This document shows, piece by piece, positions 4,687 through 28,512 of a stretch of DNA of 64,000 bases. This DNA is from Pseudomonadaceae bacterium. GTDB lineage: Bacteria; Pseudomonadota; Gammaproteobacteria; Pseudomonadales; Pseudomonadaceae. Below the pieces are notes generated by a model. It was not told the origin of the DNA, ran no database searches, and saw nothing but the letters and a program-made list of their open reading frames with translations. The stretch spans positions 1 through 64,000 of the forward strand of contig JAUVZY010000017.1 in the NCBI GenBank assembly GCA_030602315.1, in the 5' to 3' direction. The position numbers and the translations under genes are program-made. Position 1 is the stretch's first letter. The number at the start of each line of letters is the position of its first letter.

Positions 4687-6795
4687 TCAGGCCTTGACCC
4701 GGGTGATATGGCTGAGCCCGCCGATCTTGCGCAGTTTCTTGATCACGCGGGCCAGATGCACGCGGTCATGCACGCTGACCACCAGCTGGACCACGCTGAC
4801 CCGGCCGTCGCGCTCGTCCATGCTGATCTTCTCGATGTTGGCGTCGGCGGCGTTCACGCTGCCAGCCAGCAGGGCGATCAGGCCGCGCTGGTGCTCCAGC
4901 TCGATGCGCAGCTCGACGCTGAACTCGCCGGAAACGTCACGCGCCCAGGACAGCGGGATGCACTTGTCGGGGTTGTGGCGGATCTCGATGACGTTACGGC
5001 AGGTCTCCTGGTGCACCACCATGCCCTTGCCGGCCGACAGGTGGCCGACGATCGGGTCGCCGGGGATCGGCGAGCAGCAGCGCGCGTAGGACAGCACCAG
5101 CCCTTCGGTGCCGCGGATGGCCAGCGAGCCCTCGGCCTGCGGGGTCTGGTCGCCTTCGTCGGCCAGCAGGCGGCGGGCGATCACGTAGGCCATGCGGTTG
5201 CCCAGGCCCACGTCTTCGAGCAGGTCCTCGAACACCTCCATCTGATACTCGTCGAGCACGTGGCGGATGCTCTCCTCGGAGATGTCGTCGAGGCTGGCGT
5301 CGAAGCCGGCCAGCGCCTTGTTCAGCAGGCGCTCGCCGAGGCTGATCGACTCGGAGCGGCGCTGTTGCTTGAGTGCGTGGCGGATGTGCGTGCGCGCCTT
5401 GCCGGTGACCACGAAGTTGAGCCAGGCGGGGTTCGGCCGGGCGCCGGGGGCGGTGACGATTTCCACGGTGGAGCCGCTTTCCAGCGCCTGCGACAGCGGC
5501 GCCAGGCGGCGGTTGATGCGGCAGGCGATGCAGGTGTTGCCGACGTCGGTGTGCACCGCGTAGGCGAAGTCCACCGCGGTCGAGCCCTTGGGCAGCTCCA
5601 TGATGCGGCCCTTGGGGGTGAAGACGTAGACCTCGTCGGGAAACAGGTCGATCTTCACGCTCTCGATGAATTCCAGCGAATTGCCGGCGCGCTGCTGCAG
5701 CTCGAGGATGCCCTTGACCCACTGGCGGGCGCGGGCGTGGGTGCCCTTGGGCGTCTCCTCGCCGTTGGACTTGTACAGCGAGTGAGCGGCGATGCCGTTG
5801 TTGGCCATCTCTTCCATCTCGCGGGTGCGGATCTGGATCTCGATGGGCACCCCGTGCATGCCGAACAGGGTGGTGTGCAGCGACTGGTAGCCGTTGGCCT
5901 TGGGAATCGCGATGTAATCCTTGAAGCGGCCGGGCAACGGCTTGTACAGGTTGTGCACGGCGCCGAGCACGCGGTAGCAGGTGTCGACCTTGTCCACCAC
6001 GATGCGGAAGGCGTACACATCCATGATTTCGCTGAAGGACTTACGCTTGCTGCGCATCTTCTTGTAGATGCTGTAGAGGTGCTTCTCGCGGCCCATCACC
6101 TCGCCGGGCAGCCCCTCGCGTTCGAGGCAGGCGACCAGCGACTGCTCGATCTTGGCGACGATCTCCTTGCGATTGCCGCGAGCGCGGCGCACCGCGGCGC
6201 GGATGCGTTCGGAGCGCATCGGGTGCATCGCCTTGAAGCCCAGATCCTCGAACTCCACGCGCATGTTGTGCATGCCCAGGCGGTTGGCGATCGGGGCGTA
6301 GATTTCCAGGGTTTCCTTGGCGATGCGCCGGCGCTTTTCGCCGGAGAGCACTTCCAGCGTGCGCATGTTGTGCAGACGGTCGGCGAGCTTGACCAGGATC
6401 ACGCGGATGTCGCGGGCCATGGCCATGGCCATCTTCTGGAAGTTTTCCGCCTGTGCTTCGGCCTTGGTCTCGAAGTTCATCTGGGTCAGCTTGCTGACCC
6501 CATCGACCAGCTCGGCGACGGTCTCGCCGAATTGCCGGGTCAGGGCTTCCTTGGGGATGCCGGTGTCTTCGATCACATCGTGCAGCATGGCGGCCATCAG
6601 GCTCTGATGGTCCATGTGCATGTCGGCGAGGATGCCGGCCACGGCCAGCGGGTGGGTGACGTAGGCTTCGCCGCTGCGCCGGCGCTGGCCGTCATGGGCC
6701 TGCTCGGCATAGAAATAGGCGCGGCGGACCAGGTTGACCTGGTCCGGGCCGAGGTAGGTCGACAGCCTTTGGGCGAGAGTCTCTATGCTGGCCAA
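4687..6795 (-). CDS. spoT: Bifunctional (p)ppGpp synthetase/hydrolase SpoT
   Basis: 702 residues. Order of domains: an HD hydrolase domain (His48, His72-Asp73, and the Glu-Asp pair at 76-77), the RelA/SpoT synthetase domain (about 240-350) with the [19 protein letters not shown] segment, a TGS domain (about 388-447), a helical/zinc-finger-like region, and a C-terminal ACT domain (about 630-702). The RFKD (RxKD) motif in the synthetase domain is the signature of bifunctional SpoT/Rel enzymes rather than monofunctional RelA, which has ExDD. The HD motif is intact, so both synthesis and hydrolysis of ppGpp are expected. It lies 56 bases downstream of rpoZ on the minus strand, linking the alarmone enzyme to the RNA polymerase subunit that forms one of its binding sites. 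Confidence 0.97.
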
Positions 6796-9720: not shown

Positions 9721-10089
9721 ATGAGCGACCAGCAGCTGGTCCCGCTGCCGAGCCCCGAGGCGCGGCGCTGGGCGATGCTCTGCCATTACGCCGCCTTCTG
9801 CTGGTTTCTGCTGCCGATGATCGGCAATGTGCTGGGGCCGCTGATCCTCTGGCAGCTCAAGCGCGAGTCCGATCCGTTCATCGATGACCAGGGGCGCGAG
9901 GCGCTGAATTTCCAGATCACCTTCAGCGTGTGGATGATGATCGCCGGCATCCTGGCGTGGGTCATCATCGGTTTCGCGCTGATTCCGCTGATCAGCCTGG
10001 TGGCGCTGGTGCTGGTGATCATCGCCGGCATGCGTGCCAACGAGGGCAAGCGTTACCGCTACCCGTTCTGCTGGCGGGTGCTGAAGTAG
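9721..10089 (+). CDS. DUF4870 family small membrane protein
   Basis: 122 residues. A short N-terminal region carrying SPEARRWAMLCHYAAF precedes hydrophobic helices at about 24-43, 70-88 and 90-106, with the family motif DQGREALNFQITFSVW between them. This pattern (RxWAxLCHxxAF, then DxxGREALNFQ) identifies the DUF4870 (Tic20-like) family. Its function in bacteria is unknown. It sits 6 bases after rph and is followed by a strong terminator, so it is co-transcribed with rph, as in P. aeruginosa (PA5334-PA5333). Confidence 0.85.
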   Translation: MSDQQLVPLPSPEARRWAMLCHYAAFCWFLLPMIGNVLGPLILWQLKRESDPFIDDQGREALNFQITFSVWMMIAGILAWVIIGFALIPLISLVALVLVIIAGMRANEGKRYRYPFCWRVLK

Positions 10090-20687: not shown

Positions 20688-21092
20688 CTACAGCGCCGGG
20701 TAGCTGGGCGCGCGCGCCTGTTGCAGGATCGCCTCCAGGCGCCCGGCCAGCTGGCGCGGGTCGAAGGGTTTGACCAGTACCTCGCAGGCACCCACGGCGA
20801 GCAGCTCGGCGCGCCGCGCCGGGTCGGTGTTGCCGGTGAGAAACACCACCGGTATCTCGCGCAGGTCCAGTCGCTCGGCCAGATGCCGGAGCAGCTGGGT
20901 GCCGTCCATCTGCGGCAGCATGGCATCCAGCAGGATCAGGTCGGGGGCGAAATCCGCGGCATGGAGCAGGGCCTGGGCGCCGGACTCGCAGCTCAGTACC
21001 TCGAAGCCGCCGATGCGCTCGAGCGCCAGTCGGGTCACCAGGCGGATGGACGGTACGTCCTCCACATGCAGGATGCGGCGACCTTGGCTCAT
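20688..21092 (-). CDS. CheY-like single-domain response regulator
   Basis: 134 residues, one receiver domain with no output domain. Phospho-acceptor Asp56 (LILLDAMLP), acidic pair Glu11-Asp12, Thr86 and Lys108 (LVKPFD) are all in place, so phosphorylation should work. The start overlaps the stop of the upstream sensor kinase by 4 bases, so they form a cognate pair. With no DNA-binding region it must signal by protein contact or by passing phosphate on. It lies 91 bases before the transaminase on the same strand. Confidence 0.9.
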   Translation of the reverse strand: MSQGRRILHVEDVPSIRLVTRLALERIGGFEVLSCESGAQALLHAADFAPDLILLDAMLPQMDGTQLLRHLAERLDLREIPVVFLTGNTDPARRAELLAVGACEVLVKPFDPRQLAGRLEAILQQARAPSYPAL

Positions 21093-23488
21093 GCCGCCGC
21101 CCCTTCGCCGAGCGGCAGCTCGAACCAGAAGCAGGTGCCGCCCTGGGCCGGGCTGTCATAGCCGATGCGGCCGCCCATCTGCTCGATCAGCGCCTTGCTG
21201 ATCGCCAGGCCCAGGCCGGTGCCGCCCTGGCCCCGCGCCGGCGACGGGTCGGCCTGGGCGAACTTCTGAAACACCCGCGGCTGGAACGCCGCGGGAATGC
21301 CCGGCCCCTGGTCGCAGACTTCGACTCTTACCCAGCCCTCGGTCTGGCGGATGTGCAGCTGCACTGTGGCGCCGCTGGGCGAGAACTTGGCGGCGTTGGA
21401 CAAGAGGTTGTTCAGCACCTGATGCAGGCGCAGCGCATCGACGCAGACCTCGGCCTCGGTGTGTTCGCACAGGTGCAGCTGCACCGCGTGACGCTCGGCG
21501 TAACCGCGGTTGTTGCGCAGCGCCTGTTCCAGCAGCGGCTGCAACGGCTGACGGCAAGGCTCGACGCGCATCTCGCCGGCATTGATTTTGTCGAGGTCGA
21601 GCAGGTCGTCGATCAGTGCGCCGAGCCGTTCGCTATTGTGCAGAGCGATCTCCAGCAGTTCGGCGATTTCCGTGGGCACGCTGCCCATCACTCCGTCGCA
21701 GATCAGTGCCAGCGAGCCGGTGATGGAGGTGAGCGGGGTGCGCAGCTCGTGGCTGACCATCGATACGAAGTCGCGTTGCAGGCGCTCGATGCGCTTGCGC
21801 TCGGTGATGTCGTGCATCACCGCCACCGCACCCAGCTGGCGGGCGTCCGAGCCGAACAGCGGGTCGGCGCTGGTCAGCAGGTGGCGCGCCTGATCGCCCA
21901 GCAGCACGGTGTGTTCGGCCTCGGCCACCACTTCGCCCTGTAGCGCACGGACCAGCGGCAGGCGTGCCGCCGGCTCGGGTCGTTTGCCTTCGCTATCGAA
22001 CACCGCCAGGTGCTCGAGCCATTCGGACAGGTTGTCGGGCAGTTGGCCGAACCAGGCGCGGGCCTGGTGGTTGGACAGGATCAGCCGGCCTTCGCGGTCG
22101 CAGGCGACCACCGCCTCGGAGAGCGACTCGATCAGCAGGCGGGTCAGCTCCTGCTGTTTTTCCAGCTCGTGCTGCTGGGCCTTGCGCGCGCTGATGTCGG
22201 TCACCAGGCCATGCCAGAGCAGCGCGCCATCTTCCTGTGGCAGCGGGCTGGCACGGCACTCGAGCCACAGCAGGCCCTTGTCCGGGTGTTCGGCGCGGTG
22301 CTCGAAGTGCCAGGGCTGGCTCGCCAGGGTGGCCTGATGCACGCGCTCCTGCACGGCAGCGCGATCCTCGGGGTGGATGCGCAGGAACAGGTCCTCGCCA
22401 TCGTCGATCACCCGCTGCGGGCTCAGCCCGAACACCGCCTCGATGCCTTCGCTGACGAAGGTGAAGCGGCCGCCTTCGAGCGGGTGCCAGCGGTATTGAA
22501 AGAGCATGCCCGGCACCTGTGCCGCGATCTGCTGGAAGCGCAGCTGCAGGGCCTGCTGGGCGGTGAGGTCGTAGGCGATCGCCAGATAGCCGCGCGGGCG
22601 CTGGTCGGGGCCGGGGATGCTGGAGACGCTGAGCAGGACCGGCACTTCCCGGCCGCTGCGGTGGCGCAGCCGCCAGGGGCGCTGCTCGCGGTGGCCATGG
22701 CGCAGCGGCGCGCTGAACACGGCGAAGTCGGGGCTCACCGGCTCGCCCAGTTCGGCGCTGAGTTCGGTCGCCCGCGCCGCCAGGGCGCTGGGGGGGAACA
22801 GGCTGCTGGCGAGCTGGCCGATCAGGCTCGTCTCGCTGTGGCCGAGCAGGGCCTGCGCGGTCGGGTTGGCCTGCTGGATACGGCCCTCGGCGCTCATCAC
22901 CAGGATCGCGCTGCCGGCGCTGTCGAGCATCACCTGCTGGAGGATGGCCTGCTCGGCGTGCTGACGGGTCAGCAGACGCTGCTCGAACAGGCGGATGACC
23001 TGCCGGCTGAGTCGCGCCAGGGCATCGCGCTGCTCGTCGTTCAGCTGGCGCGGCTCGCGGTCGATGACGCACAGGGTGCCGAGGTTGTGGCCATCGGGGG
23101 TGGTCAGCGGCGCCCCGGCGTAGAAGCGGATCTTCGGCTCGCCGGTGACCAGCGGGTTGTCGCGAAAGCGCAGGTCCTTCAGCGCGTCGTCCACCTCGAA
23201 CAGGGACTGGCCCTGGATGGCATGCGAGCAAAAGGCGATCTGCCGCGGCGTTTCGGTGGCGCTCAGGCCGACCCGGCTCTTGAACCACTGGCGGCGCTCG
23301 TCGACCAGGGAGATCAGCGCAATCGGGGTGCCGCAGATGAAGGCGGCCAGCCGGGTGAAGTCGTCGAACTCCTCTTCGCTCGGCGTGTCGAGGATTTCAT
23401 AGCGCAGCAAGGCCGACAGCCTCGACAGTTCCTGCGAGAGCGGGTGCGGGCGCGGGTCGCCCTGGCTGGATTCGTCGGTCGCCATCAT
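21089..23488 (-). CDS. GAF-PAS sensor histidine kinase
   Basis: 799 residues with no transmembrane helices, so cytoplasmic. Order: GAF domain (about 28-172, RYEILDTPSEEEFDDFTRLA start, typical of soluble light/redox/chemical GAF sensors), three PAS regions (about 183-310, 315-435, 448-565; the second PAS_3-like with IHPEDRAAVQ), HisKA dimerisation domain with phospho-His580 in SMVSHELRTPL, and HATPase with N-box NNLLSNAAKFSP and G-box GQGGTGLGLAISK. No receiver is fused. It phosphorylates most likely the adjacent CheY-like protein, which overlaps its stop. The signal is unknown. The first two codons are both ATG; either could be the start. Confidence 0.92.
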   Translation of the reverse strand: MMATDESSQGDPRPHPLSQELSRLSALLRYEILDTPSEEEFDDFTRLAAFICGTPIALISLVDERRQWFKSRVGLSATETPRQIAFCSHAIQGQSLFEVDDALKDLRFRDNPLVTGEPKIRFYAGAPLTTPDGHNLGTLCVIDREPRQLNDEQRDALARLSRQVIRLFEQRLLTRQHAEQAILQQVMLDSAGSAILVMSAEGRIQQANPTAQALLGHSETSLIGQLASSLFPPSALAARATELSAELGEPVSPDFAVFSAPLRHGHREQRPWRLRHRSGREVPVLLSVSSIPGPDQRPRGYLAIAYDLTAQQALQLRFQQIAAQVPGMLFQYRWHPLEGGRFTFVSEGIEAVFGLSPQRVIDDGEDLFLRIHPEDRAAVQERVHQATLASQPWHFEHRAEHPDKGLLWLECRASPLPQEDGALLWHGLVTDISARKAQQHELEKQQELTRLLIESLSEAVVACDREGRLILSNHQARAWFGQLPDNLSEWLEHLAVFDSEGKRPEPAARLPLVRALQGEVVAEAEHTVLLGDQARHLLTSADPLFGSDARQLGAVAVMHDITERKRIERLQRDFVSMVSHELRTPLTSITGSLALICDGVMGSVPTEIAELLEIALHNSERLGALIDDLLDLDKINAGEMRVEPCRQPLQPLLEQALRNNRGYAERHAVQLHLCEHTEAEVCVDALRLHQVLNNLLSNAAKFSPSGATVQLHIRQTEGWVRVEVCDQGPGIPAAFQPRVFQKFAQADPSPARGQGGTGLGLAISKALIEQMGGRIGYDSPAQGGTCFWFELPLGEGAAA

Positions 23489-23803
23489 CGGGCAGCCTCA
23501 TGCACAGGGGGCGGCAGTTGCTGGGCAAGCACGATGCCGCAGGGCTCGGCGGCTGAGCCGCATTGCCTGGTTAGAGCGGCCGGCGCAAGAAAATGTCCGT
23601 CTTGCGCCCGCGCCTGCCGCCGTCGGGCGCTGCCGTGCGTCGTCCTGTGCCGGTCGGGTACGTGCATGGGGGGTCTCCTTGCCGTGTGTGCGCCAGCCGC
23701 CAGTGTCGCCCAGAATGCCGGCCGCGCGACGCGCAGCATCCCACAGGGCGAGCGTGCTTGCCTTTACACTTTATAAAAAGATATTTTGTATAAGTCTTAA
23801 TTA
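23489..23803. other. 315-base region between the sensor kinase and the arsR-like gene
   Basis: It is GC-rich for the first 260 bases and then switches to an AT-rich block (about 23762-23803) that holds the arsR-like promoter and operator. Short open frames on both strands here lack ribosome-binding sites and family resemblance and are not called. Confidence 0.5.
23763..23795 (+). promoter_or_regulatory. Promoter with overlapping imperfect palindrome (ArsR-family operator)
   Basis: -35 TTTACA at 23763-23768. Candidate -10 hexamers are TTGTAT or TGTATA (17-18 base spacer) and TATAAG at 23789-23794 (20-base spacer). An imperfect inverted repeat, ACTTTATAAAA (23768-23778) against TTTTGTATAAGT (23784-23795), spans the spacer and -10. 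AT-rich palindromes over the promoter are typical of BigR-type self-repression; the operator role is inferred. Confidence 0.55.
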
Positions 23804-24133
23804 ATGGTGACGCTCGTGACACTCGATGCGCATGAGTTGCAGTTGCTGCGTGCCAACGCAGGCGAAGCCTGTCAACTGCTCAAGACGCTGGCCAATCCTG
23901 ATCGGCTGTTGCTGCTTTGCCAATTGGTCGATGGTGAACGCAATGTCGGCGACCTGGAGCGCGAACTGGGCATCCAGCAGCCGACACTTTCCCAGCAGCT
24001 GGCGGTGTTGCGTCGCGAGTCGCTGGTGAGCACGCGGCGCGAGGGCAAGCAGGTGTACTACCGCATCGCCAGCCCCGCTGCGCTCGCCGTTCTGCAAACG
24101 CTTCATCAACTATTCTGTGGAGGAGAGCGATGA
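23804..24133 (+). CDS. ArsR/SmtB repressor, persulfide-sensor (BigR/SqrR) type
   Basis: 109 residues, one winged-helix domain with recognition-helix region GIQQPTLSQQLAVLRRE. Cysteines are at 23, 39 and 105. The Cys39-Cys105 spacing of 66 residues is the same as the dithiol pair of SqrR (41/107) and BigR (42/108), placed in alpha-2 and the C-terminal helix, and metal-site ELCVC-type motifs are absent. Known family members lose DNA binding when persulfide links the cysteines. It overlaps the downstream transporter gene by 4 bases and should repress this operon. No Shine-Dalgarno precedes the ATG and the predicted transcript start is only a few bases upstream, so the mRNA may be leaderless. An in-frame GTG at 23816 is an alternative start. 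Confidence 0.85.
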   Translation: MVTLVTLDAHELQLLRANAGEACQLLKTLANPDRLLLLCQLVDGERNVGDLERELGIQQPTLSQQLAVLRRESLVSTRREGKQVYYRIASPAALAVLQTLHQLFCGGER

Positions 24134-24561
24134 GCATCGATTGGGCGAATTTCACGCCCTGGTCAGCCTTGGCCGGAGGACTGCTGATCGGCCTCGGGGC
24201 TGGTGCGTTCGTGTTGTTCAATGGCCGGATCGCCGGCATCAGCGGCCTGTTGGGCAGCCTGTTCGGCAAGGGTGACGGGCGCGCCGAGAAGGGCCTGTTC
24301 CTGCTGGGTATCGTGGTTGCGCCGTTGCTGTGGGCGTTGTTCCACGCGCTGCCGGCGGTGGAGTTTCAGACGGGTTGGCTGGGCCTGGTGATTGCGGGGC
24401 TCTTGGTCGGCATCGGCACCCGCTACGGTTCGGGTTGCACCAGCGGTCACGGCGTCTGCGGCCTGTCGCGGCTGTCGCCCCGTTCGCTGGTCGCGACGCT
24501 GGCGTTCATGACCAGCGGCTTTCTGACCGTGTTTTTGCTGCGTCATTTGTTGGGGGGCTGA
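24130..24561 (+). CDS. YeeE/YedE family sulfur transporter, first half (PmpA-like)
   Basis: 143 residues, about four hydrophobic helices. It has the family motif GSGCTSGHGVCGLSRLSPRS near residue 99, with two cysteines that in YeeE/TsuA transporters line the thiosulfate path, and the earlier GRIAGISGLLG segment. Single full-length YeeE proteins contain two such halves; here the second half is the next gene, which starts immediately after. The pair resembles the split PmpA/PmpB transporters found with BigR-type regulators. The likely substrate is a reduced sulfur species such as thiosulfate or persulfide-related sulfur; direction of transport is not known. Confidence 0.85.
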   Translation: MSIDWANFTPWSALAGGLLIGLGAGAFVLFNGRIAGISGLLGSLFGKGDGRAEKGLFLLGIVVAPLLWALFHALPAVEFQTGWLGLVIAGLLVGIGTRYGSGCTSGHGVCGLSRLSPRSLVATLAFMTSGFLTVFLLRHLLGG

Positions 24562-24981
24562 ATGAGCAAGATCACCGCATTGTTCGCCGGGCTGATATTT
24601 GGACTTGGCCTGCTGCTGTCGGGGATGACCAACCCGAGCAAGGTGCTGGGCTTTCTCGATCTGGCCGGCAACTGGGATCCGTCGCTGGCGCTGGTGATGG
24701 TCGGCGCGATCGGCGCCGCGCTGCTGCCGATGCAGTGGGCCAGGCGCCACGACAAGTCGCTGCTCGACCAACCCATGCAGCTGCCGACCAAGCGTGCGCT
24801 CGATCAGCCGCTGATCGCCGGCAGCCTGCTGTTCGGCGTCGGTTGGGGCATCGCCGGGATCTGCCCGGGGCCGGGGCTGGCGCTGCTGACCCAGGGCTAC
24901 TGGCAGGGCTGGCTGTTCGTCGCCGCGATGATCGCCGGCATGCTGATATTCAAGGCGCTGGAGTCCCGGCGCCATTCGTGA
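24562..24981 (+). CDS. YeeE/YedE-type sulfur transporter, second half (DUF6691, PmpB-like)
   Basis: 139 residues, about four helices. Family features: GLLLSGMTNPSKVLGFLDLAGNWDPSLALVMVG and, in the second part, FGVGWGIAGICPGPGLALL with the conserved Cys of the pore motif. It starts on the base after the stop of the first half, so the two are made together and probably form one transporter with the pseudo-symmetric halves on separate chains. The operon order (ArsR sensor, half 1, half 2) matches BigR-controlled operons of plant-associated proteobacteria. Confidence 0.85.
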   Translation: MSKITALFAGLIFGLGLLLSGMTNPSKVLGFLDLAGNWDPSLALVMVGAIGAALLPMQWARRHDKSLLDQPMQLPTKRALDQPLIAGSLLFGVGWGIAGICPGPGLALLTQGYWQGWLFVAAMIAGMLIFKALESRRHS

Positions 24982-24996
24982 GTGGAGGGAAACATC

Positions 24997-25194
24997 ATGC
25001 AAGCCAACGTAGGAACCCTTGATCGGATCGCACGCATCGTCGTCGGTCTGGCGCTGATCGGCTTGACGCTCGCCGGCGTGATCGGCGTTTGGGGCTGGAT
25101 TGGCGTCGTGCCGCTGGCCACCGGCATCTTCCGTTTCTGTCCGGCCTACCCGCTGCTGGGCATCAACACCTGCGGCAAGTGCAAGAGCCGGTGA
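24997..25194 (+). CDS. DUF2892 (YgaP-type) small membrane protein
   Basis: 65 residues from the ATG at 24997, preceded by GGAGGGA with 6-base spacing; a GTG 15 bases upstream is possible but worse placed. N-terminus NVGTLDRIARIVVGLALIG and C-terminal FRFCPAYPLLGINTC are the DUF2892 pattern seen as the membrane part of YgaP-like rhodanese proteins. Two helices form a hairpin; three cysteines (CPAY, NTC, GKC) cluster at the C-terminal end, and could carry sulfane sulfur. It fits the sulfur theme of the operon. It has no rhodanese domain of its own. Confidence 0.8.
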   Translation: MQANVGTLDRIARIVVGLALIGLTLAGVIGVWGWIGVVPLATGIFRFCPAYPLLGINTCGKCKSR

Positions 25195-25919
25195 ACCCCA
25201 CGCCTGACGCCGGGCCATCGCCGGCTTCGCTGATCCGCGTATGGGACGCGCCGCTGCGGATGTTCCACTGGACACTCGCGGCGAGCGTGGTCGCCGCGCT
25301 GGTCACCGGCTGGCTGGGCGGTGGCCTGATGGTCTGGCATGGCCGGCTGGGGATGCTGATCCTCGGCCTGCTGGTGTTTCGCCTGGCCTGGGGCGTACTC
25401 GGTTCAACCTACGCGCGCTGGTCACGCATTTGCCTGGCGCCGTTTGGCGTGCTCGCCTATCTGCGCGGCCAGTGGCGCGAGCCCGGGCACAGCCCACTCG
25501 GCTCGCTGGCCACGCTCGGCCTGTTGAGCGTGCTCGGCCTGCAGGTGGCGAGCGGCCTGTTCGCCAATGACGACATCGCCTTTCGCGGACCGCTGCAGCG
25601 GTTGGTGGATGGCGGGACCAGTGACTGGCTGACGGGCGTGCATCGCCAGGCGAAGTGGTTGGTACTCGGCATGATCGGCCTGCATCTGGCGGCGATCGCC
25701 TTCTATCAGCTGGTGCAGCGGCGGCCCTTGGTGCGCGCGATGATCAGCGGGCGTTGCCCGCGCGAGTTCGCCTCCCAGCGCGATGCGGTGGGTGGGGCCT
25801 GGTGGGCGCTGTTGCTGGCGGTCGGTCTGGCGGTGCTGGTGGTATGGCTGGTGCAGGCAGCGCCGGACTGGCTGACGCCGCCCGCGCCACCGCCCGCACC
25901 GGCGGTGCTCGACTGGTAA
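25191..25919 (+). CDS. Cytochrome b561-like membrane protein
   Basis: 242 residues from a GTG start whose last two bases lie in the stop of the DUF2892 gene (GTGA overlap). Four to five transmembrane helices with histidines placed as haem b ligands: FHWTLA (helix 1), VWHGRLGM (helix 2), GVHRQAKW and GLHLAAI later. It starts IRVWDAPLRMFHW, the Ni/Fe-hydrogenase b-type/cytochrome b561 pattern, and ends in a Pro/Ala-rich tail. It should move electrons between quinol and a periplasmic partner, plausibly the convergent cytochrome c'. Its membership of the persulfide-regulated operon is inferred from overlap. Confidence 0.85.
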   Translation: MNPTPDAGPSPASLIRVWDAPLRMFHWTLAASVVAALVTGWLGGGLMVWHGRLGMLILGLLVFRLAWGVLGSTYARWSRICLAPFGVLAYLRGQWREPGHSPLGSLATLGLLSVLGLQVASGLFANDDIAFRGPLQRLVDGGTSDWLTGVHRQAKWLVLGMIGLHLAAIAFYQLVQRRPLVRAMISGRCPREFASQRDAVGGAWWALLLAVGLAVLVVWLVQAAPDWLTPPAPPPAPAVLDW

Positions 25920-25951: not shown

Positions 25952-26416
25952 TCAGTCGTGGCGGAACTTGTCGTGGCAGGACTTGCAGGTCTTGCCGGTT
26001 TCGCCGAAAGCAGCCTTGATCGCGCCCTTGTCGCCGGATGCGGCCACGCTGGCCAGCTGGTTGGCGGCCAGGTTGAACTCCCTGCCCAGCCGTGAGGCTT
26101 CGTCGAGGTTCTTGAAGAAGTCGGCTTTCAGACGGGTCTGCTTGCCCAGTTCGGCGCGGCTGGTGCCAGGGCTGAACAGTTCACCCATGCCCGAGTTGGC
26201 CACGGCGGCGATGGCATTGGCCGCCGCCTGTACCTTCAGCGGATCGTAGGGCACGCTCTCGTCCACCACCTGGGCCTTGATCTTGCCCATGTTCCACGCC
26301 ATGAACTGGTAGCCGGCCTTGCGGTTTTTCACCTGGTCCTTGGGCTCGAGGGGCTGGGCGTAGGCGCCGGTGGCCAGCAGTGCGGCGCTCAGGCCGCCGA
26401 TCAACAGTGCTTTCAC
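25952..26416 (-). CDS. Cytochrome c' (periplasmic haem c protein)
   Basis: 154 residues. Signal peptide cleaved after about residue 20 (ATGAYA-QP). Haem motif CKSCH at 144-148 near the C-terminus, followed by DKFR, with the four-helix-bundle layout of class II cytochromes c. Gln/Phe and Met near 37-43 (YQFMAWNMG) match the segment that shapes the sixth-ligand pocket of cytochrome c', usually open and able to bind NO. Cytochromes c' are linked to NO tolerance and electron carriage. It faces the cytochrome b561-like gene tail to tail; in many proteobacteria cytochrome c' and a b561 gene are neighbours, which suggests a working pair. Confidence 0.88.
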   Translation of the reverse strand: MKALLIGGLSAALLATGAYAQPLEPKDQVKNRKAGYQFMAWNMGKIKAQVVDESVPYDPLKVQAAANAIAAVANSGMGELFSPGTSRAELGKQTRLKADFFKNLDEASRLGREFNLAANQLASVAASGDKGAIKAAFGETGKTCKSCHDKFRHD

Positions 26417-26518: not shown

Positions 26519-27634
26519 TCAGCCGTGATGCCGCCGGCCTGCCGGTTGCTGTTGGGTGATGCAATGGATGTTGCCGCCGCCGAGCAGGATCTCGCGCCCC
26601 GGCACCATCACCACCTCGCGCTCGGGAAAGCACGCCGCGAGGATCGCCCGCGCCTCGGCGTCCTTGGCGTCGTCGAATGCCGGCGCGATGATGCCGCCGT
26701 TGACGATCAGGAAGTTGACATAGGAGCCGGCCAGGCGGATCGACGGATCGCGCGGCTGACTGCCGGCGACGATATCCACCGCCGCGCACTCGGCCGTGCT
26801 GGCGTGCAGCGGGCCGGGGATCGGGAGGCGGTGGATGGTCAGCGTCCGGCCCCGGGCATCGCGCGCCTGTTCCAGCACTTTCAGGGCCGCCTGGCAACGC
26901 GGGTAGTTCGGGTCGGCCGGATCGTCGGTCCAGGCCAGCAGCACCTCGCCGGGCCGGACGAAACAGCAGAAGTTGTCCACGTGGCCGTCGGTCTCGTCGT
27001 TGTGGAGGCCCTGCGGCAGCCAGATGATGACGTCCACGCCGAGGTGCTCGCGCAGCATCGCCTCGATTGCTTCGCGGCCGAGCGCCGGGTTGCGGTTGCG
27101 ATTGAGCAGGCACTCCTCGGTGGTGAGCAGGGTGCCTTCGCCGTCGACGTGGATGGCGCCGCCCTCGAGCACAAAGCCCTCGGTGCGGTAGCGCGCACAG
27201 CCCTCGAGCGCGAGGATCTTGCGCGCGACCTGGTCGTCGCGCTGCCAGGGCCAGTACAGCCCGCCGTCAAAGCCGCCCCAGGCGTTGAAGGTCCAGTCGA
27301 CCCCGCGCACCGCGCCATCGTGATTCACCACGAAGGTCGGGCCGGTGTCGCGCACCCAGGCGTCGTCGCTGGAGAGCTCCACCACGCGGATGTGCGGGTG
27401 ATCGAGCCGGGCGCTGGCATTCTCGTACTGCGCGGCGGACACCCCGACGCTGACCGGCTCGAAGCGGGCGATGGCGCGGGCGACCTCGGCGAACGCGGCC
27501 TGCGCCGGCTTGGCACCGGAGTGCCAGTTGTCAGGGCGCTCCGGCCAGAGCATCCAGGTCTGCTTGTGCGGCGCCCATTCGGCCGGCATGTAAAAGCCGT
27601 CGGCGCGTGGCGTGCTGGTCAGGGCCGTCATCAT
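26519..27634 (-). CDS. aguA: Agmatine deiminase
   Basis: 371 residues from the ATG at 27634, which overlaps the aguB stop by 4 bases (an ATG 3 bases later or a GTG at 27640 are alternatives). Guanidino-modifying fold with [53 protein letters not shown] and the catalytic Cys in [11 protein letters not shown]. It hydrolyses agmatine to N-carbamoylputrescine and ammonia. The product goes to AguB, encoded just upstream on the same mRNA. As aguBA under AguR in Pseudomonas, it feeds putrescine into the adjacent spu pathway. Confidence 0.96.
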
Positions 27635-28512
27635 TTGCACTCGTGCCGGCCATCGAGGGTCTTGATCGGCGCGTAGAGCGTCGGCCGGCGGTCACGGTAC
27701 ACGCCCCAGGCGCTGCGAATGTGCTCCAGCTGATCCAGGTCGAAGCTGTGTACCAGCACGCCCTGCTCGGTTTGGTCGAGCTCCTCGACCTTGGCGCCGA
27801 ACTGGTCGGCGATGAACGACGAGCCGTAGAAGGTGATCTGGTAGCCGTCCTGCTCCTCGGTGCCCACCCGGTTGCTGGCCACCAGCGGCATCAGGTTGGC
27901 GCCGGCGTGGCCCTGTTGCACGCGCTGCCAGTGATCGCGCGACTGGATGCTCGGATCATGGGGCTCGCTGCCGATGGCGGTGGGGTAGAACAGGATCTCG
28001 GCGCCCAGTAGCGCCATGCTGCGCGCGGTTTCCGGGAACCACTGGTCCCAGCAGATGCCGACGCCGATTCGCGCATAGCGGGTGTCCCACACCTTGAAGC
28101 CGGTGTCGCCGGGGTTGAAGTAGTACTTTTCGTGATAGCCCGGGCCGTCCGGGATATGGCTCTTGCGATAGACGCCGAGCAGGCTGCCGTCGGCGTCGAT
28201 CACCGCCACGCTGTTGTAGCGGGCGCGCCCGGCCAGCTCGAAGAAGCTGATCGGCAGCACCACCGCCAGCTCGGCGGCGACCTTCTGGAAATGCGCGATG
28301 GCCGGGTTGGTTTCGACGGGCGTCGCCAGCTGCAGATACTGCGCGTTGGGCTTCTGGCAGAAATACGGCGTCTCGAACAGTTCCTGGATCAGGATGATCT
28401 GCGCGCCGCGCGCGGCCGCCTCGCGCACCAGCTGCTCGGCGCGGGCGATGTTGGCCTGGCGATCCCAGGAACAGGCCATCTGGGTGGCGGCGACGGTTAC
28501 GGTACGGGGCAT
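27631..28512 (-). CDS. aguB: N-carbamoylputrescine amidase
   Basis: 293 residues, nitrilase superfamily. The Glu-Lys-Cys triad is Glu44 (IQELFE), Lys117 (YRKSHIPD) and Cys154 ([10 protein letters not shown]). It converts N-carbamoylputrescine to putrescine, CO2 and ammonia. It is translationally coupled to aguA by a 4-base overlap. Upstream lies a promoter with an embedded palindrome (28593-28621), and then the TetR-type regulator gene. Confidence 0.96.

Follow-up and report, generated by a model that had tools for sequence, protein, structure and literature searches.

The question raised by this locus is whether one repressor of the ArsR family can bring a sulfur transporter and a membrane cytochrome into the same response. 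The stretch analysed here, called the window, consists of positions 1 to 64,000 of contig JAUVZY010000017.1 (assembly GCA_030602315.1) from a Pseudomonadaceae bacterium. In it, five open reading frames (ORFs), arsR, yeeE, yedE, a DUF2892 gene and a cytochrome b561 gene, follow one another with gaps of at most 15 bp or with overlaps (Table 1). A preliminary description, made from the letters alone, had presented them as a candidate persulfide-sensing operon. All five ORFs lie where it had placed them, in the same order and with the same overlaps: arsR and yeeE are joined by ATGA, and the DUF2892 stop and the cytochrome start by a 4-bp GTGA. Its gene list was right but overlooked a candidate operator ahead of arsR and a cytochrome c' gene beyond the cytochrome b561 gene.

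We consider it reasonably probable that this is an autorepressed operon responding to reactive sulfur, of the BigR/SqrR/PigS kind, with a transporter of the YedE1E2/PmpAB type, a cytochrome b561 coupled by gene overlap, and the mechanism that we infer below. The features of the locus exceed chance, since its gene order, its cysteines and its operator are found again in many genomes. What the sequences themselves show is the class of sensor, its cysteines, the candidate operator, the type of transporter, the coupling of the genes, the recurrent linkage to cytochromes and a second operator in a congener (genome G001).

The regulator probably senses reactive sulfur. Its closest PDB sequence is BigR (3pqj, 4.1e-26 with phmmer), followed by the 6o8k/6o8l series (1.5e-23), which we take to be SqrR structures. 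Cys39 and Cys105 align to cysteines of 3pqj and 6o8k in the phmmer comparison with the PDB, and each is kept in all 54 ArsR proteins that adjoin yeeE, counting that of the window. The pair and its spacing of 66 residues had been pointed out in the preliminary description and were confirmed. The sensor class that it had proposed agrees with the best PDB match, the aligned cysteines and the invariant dithiol. An additional Cys23, unmentioned there, is a cysteine in 11 of the 54 sequences. As no clear Shine-Dalgarno sequence stands ahead of 23804, neither the arsR start nor the residue numbering is certain; the spacing of 66 is unaffected. In BigR, H2S or polysulfide converts the equivalent pair Cys42/Cys108 to a disulfide, with release of DNA (PMC5823870). 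Two conserved cysteines are common to SoxR, BigR, YgaV, HlyU and sHdrR, those of sHdrR being Cys50 and Cys116 (PMC12423496, 2025).

Two NCBIfam results stand against this assignment. The BigR equivalog NF040642 is the best NCBIfam match of ArsR but falls below its cutoff (109.9 vs 155 bits), and the general metalloregulator model HTH_metalloreg passes its own (86.1 vs 55). By the NCBIfam rule, the predicted protein is a relative of BigR and not BigR itself. The sequence holds no CxCxxC-type metal motif. Thus, the earlier claim that metal-site motifs are lacking stands for the motif, and it is qualified by the general model. A second ArsR gene of the same genome (L107, G000:C44, near 4688-4924) has, unlike the ArsR of the window, the sequence ELCVCEL, presumably a metal-type motif.

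Upstream regions of the arsR relatives have a 27-bp AT-rich near-palindrome in common, and the copy in the window is the candidate operator. We scored it with a matrix built from 29 of the 77 yeeE loci found in 76 family genomes; loci L107, L110 and L098 were excluded from the matrix, and the 77 omit a weak yeeE match of G021 and a second match of G126. When the matrix is built without the window, its operator scores 29.1, and the best non-overlapping site in the 64 kb reaches 2.6. Removing both rows of its genus from the matrix gives 29.2; among 2000 sequences from a first-order Markov model of the local AT-rich 64 bp, none attained this value (maximum 25.7). Across the 77 loci, both arsR and operator are present in 53 and both missing in 16, with arsR alone in one and the operator alone in seven. 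For the association test we used the 48 loci outside the matrix (both 24, neither 16, arsR alone 1, operator alone 7; Fisher p 1.7e-6, relatedness ignored).

At the level of the whole genome, the operator pattern with up to three mismatches gave seven matches, vs two for the reversed pattern. The arsR site, matched in both orientations, accounts for two of the seven; the remaining five have matrix scores under 16. The loose pattern is unspecific in G001 (134 vs 112 for the reversed one), and therefore we relied on the matrix there. A site scoring 27.6 in genome G003 (L113), between unrelated genes in an AT-rich stretch, was taken as chance. A scan for the sigma-70 consensus found no promoter, and an inverted-repeat search did not report the imperfect palindrome of the operator. 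The SqrR site deduced elsewhere, ATTC-N8-GAAT (PMC9774250), is absent from the operator of the window by eye.

The same loci offer two side observations on regulation. Genus g17 (L089, L090, L275, L278) has the ArsR-type operator directly before yeeE with no adjoining arsR, which makes control by a regulator from another locus likely. In genus g11 (L094, L095, L252, L253, L288-L290), yeeE-yedE is followed by a persulfide dioxygenase (PDO) gene, pdo, and both arsR and operator are absent, so a different regulator is likely.

The transporter was described beforehand as split, and the sequence agrees: it would be made of two small adjacent proteins, each with one invariant cysteine, Cys103 in YeeE and Cys101 in YedE (77/77 loci for each). 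Compared by residue number alone, these are near Cys104 of CpYedE1 and Cys101 of CpYedE2 from Cupriavidus pinatubonensis, which are essential for uptake of zero-valent sulfur (PMC10812762). According to the same source, YedE1/YedE2 import zero-valent sulfur and promote glutathione persulfide formation; import was stimulated and export was not, and the single-chain YedE3 did not have this effect. Of the importer or exporter proposed earlier, the literature thus favours the importer by analogy. The C. pinatubonensis pair also consists of two small membrane proteins beside an ArsR gene, each with one conserved essential cysteine, as here, and is 59% identical to PmpA/PmpB. However, its genomic partners differ from those of the window, and the accessible text mentions no cytochrome (PMC10812762).

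For the DUF2892 protein, the C-terminal cysteines noted earlier were confirmed: C48 and C59 are invariant in 27 sequences, and C62 is present in eight of them. It matches the Pfam model of the transmembrane domain of YgaP, whose operon is governed in Escherichia coli (ygaVP) by a SqrR/BigR-type repressor (PMC9774250). YgaP is a rhodanese-like enzyme, whereas the window has the membrane part only, plus a transporter and a cytochrome.

These features bear on another reading, in which a metal or general redox stress is what ArsR detects and the transporter has a different task, for instance thiosulfate uptake in sulfur nutrition. The HTH_metalloreg score would fit it, as would the thiosulfate uptake by single-chain YeeE (TsuA; PMC11073785). 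We regard it as very improbable given the missing CxCxxC motif, the dithiol in 54/54 proteins, the pdo gene that follows in many arsR-operator loci of relatives, and the report that the split form, not YedE3, sped zero-valent sulfur uptake (PMC10812762).

A sensor with a sulfur importer is a known kind of system, as in PigS or BigR with PmpAB. A close likeness is the BigR yeeE-yedE-pdo2 operon of Acinetobacter baumannii, with a BigR-type dithiol 66 residues apart (C34/C100) and a two-gene YeeE/YedE, as here (PMC7315123). It includes the persulfide dioxygenase, whereas the operon of the window ends in DUF2892 and cytochrome b561 and its pdo is on another contig. In Serratia sp. ATCC 39006, PigS/PmpAB likewise has a regulator in charge of two small membrane proteins of the YeeE type, and no cytochrome is mentioned for it in the accessible parts of the papers citing Gristwood 2011. 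The preliminary description had spoken of a variant sulfide-response system. The cytochrome part is indeed new, but BigR with YeeE/YedE is published for Acinetobacter and has a precedent in Serratia. Among open PubMed Central papers, we found none joining YeeE, or SqrR/BigR, with cytochrome b561. Bacterial persulfide sensors control dioxygenases, SQR and transporters.

The cytochrome b561 has five invariant histidines (26, 50, 100, 151 and 165; 14 aligned sequences), which are candidate haem ligands. The neighbouring cytochrome c' carries a C-terminal CxxCH in 17/17 sequences, and its best PDB matches (5b3i, 8rkp and 1bbh) are named cytochrome c prime or c'. Both genes adjoin, convergently, in 29 of 30 cytochrome b-centred family loci, the exception being G001. 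We also scanned named genomes, taking the best 80 of at least 583 confirmed stretches: 65 of the 80 have a cytochrome c' match, most of them convergent and some in tandem. Thus, cytochromes b and c' form a conserved pair of their own. The claim that cytochrome b belongs to a sulfur operon is supported by the overlap and the recurrence of the linkage; on the other hand, its usual partner is cytochrome c', usually away from sulfur genes.

Strong cytochrome b matches were found in 59 family genomes (matches weaker than E 1e-40 were excluded, and 30 of the 59 provide the cytochrome b-centred family loci). Of these genomes, 35 also have yeeE, and in 20 of the 35 the two genes lie within 6 kb. By genus, the linked genomes are 2/2 in g1, 10/11 in g5, 8/8 in g10, 0/1 in g7, 0/8 in g15, 0/1 in g16 and 0/4 in g17. 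The linkage therefore occurs in three genera, and with three layouts. The exact order arsR-yeeE-yedE-DUF2892-cytochrome b is the layout of genus g1, shared by the congener G001. In g10 the order is (arsR)-yeeE-yedE-cytochrome c' facing cytochrome b, with arsR unmatched in G012; in g5 it is arsR-yeeE-yedE-SulP-(DUF2892)-(cytochrome c') facing cytochrome b, and genome-wide searches of G057 and G065, two members of g5, found no cytochrome c'. Given these layouts, either cytochrome of the pair can sit in the operon. On the transporter tree the linked state needs four changes, two of which are forced by well-supported branches, and G001 is on a long branch.

Several observations weigh against a functional tie between the cytochromes and the sulfur module. 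In the named-genome scan, the module lies within the fetched stretch in three of 80 loci (P. linyingensis, P. neustonica and P. oryzagri). Among 108 cytochrome b-centred loci, the operator scores above 20 only in L216, L233 and L245, the loci of these three species, and their stretches take in the promoter of the sulfur module. The matrix scan of the 64-kb window gave the cytochrome c' gene no operator of its own. A class-wide sample of 274 genomes has 11 with both cytochrome b and yeeE, linked only in that of the window, and no linkage was seen outside the family. Of four genomes sampled from the genus of the window, two carry the operon. As for the other two, G003, which is 70% complete, bears the cytochrome pair on a contig from which the sulfur module is absent, and G002 gave no match for cytochrome b, yeeE or cytochrome c'.

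The locus could then be a plain PigS/BigR-PmpAB uptake operon, with the cytochrome b gene a chance neighbour from an independent pair, co-transcribed by position and with no role in common. The pair does occur without an adjoining module in g15-g18 loci and in 77 of the best 80 named loci as fetched. Moreover, the same agmatine-type gene pair (L065, L092) flanks cytochrome c'-cytochrome b without the module in G003 and the module without cytochromes in G042, arrangements that fit chance joining or loss alike. We find this explanation somewhat unlikely, since three genera show the linkage in differing gene orders, the tree forces at least two changes of state, and G001 retains cytochrome b in the operon apart from a cytochrome c' gene that adjoins a second operator.

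G001 provides the strongest evidence that both cytochromes and pdo can share a regulon, in one genome. It keeps the five-gene order amid different neighbours, and its cytochrome c' gene is apart from cytochrome b, at C3:320270-320728 (-), divergent from pdo (C3:320945-321811), which is followed by SulP. Between cytochrome c' and pdo, about 7 kb from the operon, there is an ArsR-type operator scoring 35.1 with the matrix without the genus of the window. All 3000 Markov sequences modelled on the intergenic region stayed below this value (maximum 22.5), and the only strong sites in the 14 kb covered are this one and the arsR operator. This supports a single regulon that would take in the two cytochromes and pdo. 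Together with the gene overlap in the window, these operators also suggest that cytochrome b is under the same repressor, as the preliminary description had it.

The same description had found neither PDO nor rhodanese at the locus. None is beside the operon, but the idea that the genome lacks PDO was rejected: contig C19 carries a single run of genes for a PDO-like protein, a sulfurtransferase/SQR-like fusion and SulP. This pdo-like gene shares 78% identity with a pdo located after yeeE-yedE in a relative, and the run adjoins chrB, chrA and an MBL-rhodanese gene. The genome is a 2.79 Mb draft, 78% complete, in which absences are weak evidence. PDO is named by similarity. The Pfam metallo-beta-lactamase model scores above its cutoff with the reference protein, which also matches NCBIfam Blh in its dioxygenase half with 404.8 bits, below the 625 cutoff of that two-domain protein. 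The NCBIfam SQR model misses its cutoff (175.8 vs 525). Beside pdo, a BLH-phosphatase-type sulfurtransferase domain is fused to an SQR-like flavoprotein domain (L084:8151-9890; L106:7337-9100, minus strand).

Local absence of PDO is common, since 46 of the 77 family loci, counting that of the window, show none near yeeE in the fetched stretch. It is near yeeE in 31 and follows on the same strand in 22; 25 loci were fetched as stretches below 8 kb, which makes the counts of nearby PDO lower bounds. A PDO near yeeE (31 loci) and cytochromes near yeeE (20) never coincide among the 77. One could thus propose that a persulfide-induced electron module of the envelope, cytochrome b561/c', cooperates with the importer and replaces the local PDO in some Pseudomonadaceae under one BigR-type repressor. 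Periplasmic sulfide or persulfide would pass electrons by way of cytochrome c' and then cytochrome b561 on to quinone, and the resulting sulfane sulfur would be imported by YedE1E2. We hold this proposal to be unlikely. The linked g5 genomes searched for PDO (two were not among them) gave no match above 40% identity in seven of eight, and G065 has one at 79%; however, all eight linked g10 genomes, G001 and the genome of the window have PDO elsewhere, which counts against replacement. The exclusion tracks genus lines, and replacement was left without statistical support: Fisher p is 6.7e-6 ignoring relatedness, and the independent-pairs test gives p 1 with two pairs.

Control of the C19 pdo by ArsR through the same operator was rejected (best upstream score -3.5), a further point against a single regulon in this genome. 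At its start is ATACCCCATGGAGTAT (L106, G000:C19:64000-82000, 10000-10015), which we take to be one base off a CsoR-type palindrome and to resemble the operators of the CsoR family. Loosely similar elements precede 15 of 24 pdo genes, some of which directly follow yeeE. One CsoR-family gene was found in the draft genome, on a different contig from pdo, and the element may mean a second sulfur sensor. By analogy with A. baumannii, which has two separate sulfur-response systems, FisR and BigR (PMC7315123), the cell could have two as well. A different conserved motif, TCTA(A/T)GC(A/T)TA, in several cases as TTCTATGCATAGAA, occurs in 10 of the 24 pdo upstream regions (L142, L144, L147, L151, L153, L154, L156 and others).

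Returning to the autorepressed operon that we favour, persulfide or polysulfide would join Cys39 and Cys105, ArsR would leave the operator, and the operon would be expressed. By means of its two cysteines, the YedE1E2-type transporter would deliver zero-valent sulfur to the cytoplasm in the form of persulfide, and the DUF2892 protein may hold sulfane sulfur or pass it on. Together with the periplasmic cytochrome c', cytochrome b561 would make up a transmembrane electron path linked to quinone. During sulfur import, electrons would most likely run along it to quinone from the oxidation of periplasmic sulfide or persulfide, or in reverse. The imported sulfur would be oxidised by the PDO encoded elsewhere in the genome.

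Cytochrome c' proteins bind nitric oxide (NO), and the pair might instead handle NO or nitrosopersulfide: a five-coordinate cytochrome c' would trap NO arising from sulfide and nitrogen oxides, and b561 would keep it reduced. The names of the best structural matches fit this role, although the five-gene operon has no NO-response gene, and we rate it as doubtful. It can be compatible with our preferred explanation for the rest of the operon.

Table 1. Features of the sulfur operon and its surroundings (positions in the window)
Feature	Positions	Strand	Basis
AT-rich near-palindromic candidate operator TTACACTTTATAAAAAGATATTTTGTA, 13 bp before arsR	23764..23790	+	matrix score
arsR, BigR/SqrR-like repressor, 109 aa, Cys39 and Cys105	23804..24133	+	Pfam HTH_5
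yeeE-like half transporter, 143 aa, Cys103	24130..24561	+	Sulf_transp PF04143, 27.8 bits vs cutoff 27
yedE-like half transporter, 139 aa, Cys101	24562..24981	+	DUF6691 PF20398, 177.6 bits
DUF2892 / YgaP-like transmembrane protein, 65 aa, Cys48, Cys59, Cys62	24997..25194	+	PF11127, 85.9 bits
cytochrome b561-type membrane protein, GTG start	25191..25919	+	PF01292, 74.8 bits vs cutoff 30.1
cytochrome c' with a CKSCH haem motif, gene convergent with cytochrome b	25952..26416	-	PF01322, 113.4 bits vs cutoff 26.5

Around these genes, a GAF/PAS histidine kinase and a single-domain response regulator (20688-23488, minus strand) are divergent from arsR. On the other side, PAD_porph (agmatine deiminase-type) and carbon-nitrogen hydrolase genes (26519-28512, minus strand) adjoin cytochrome c'.

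A sensor with a sulfur importer is a known arrangement, and the association with cytochromes, seen here and in some relatives, is the new part. If the recurrent link to cytochromes b and c' is true, sulfane-sulfur sensing would be tied to transmembrane electron flow. The widespread cytochrome pair would gain a testable condition for its role, and the candidate operator would allow the regulon to be traced in other genomes.

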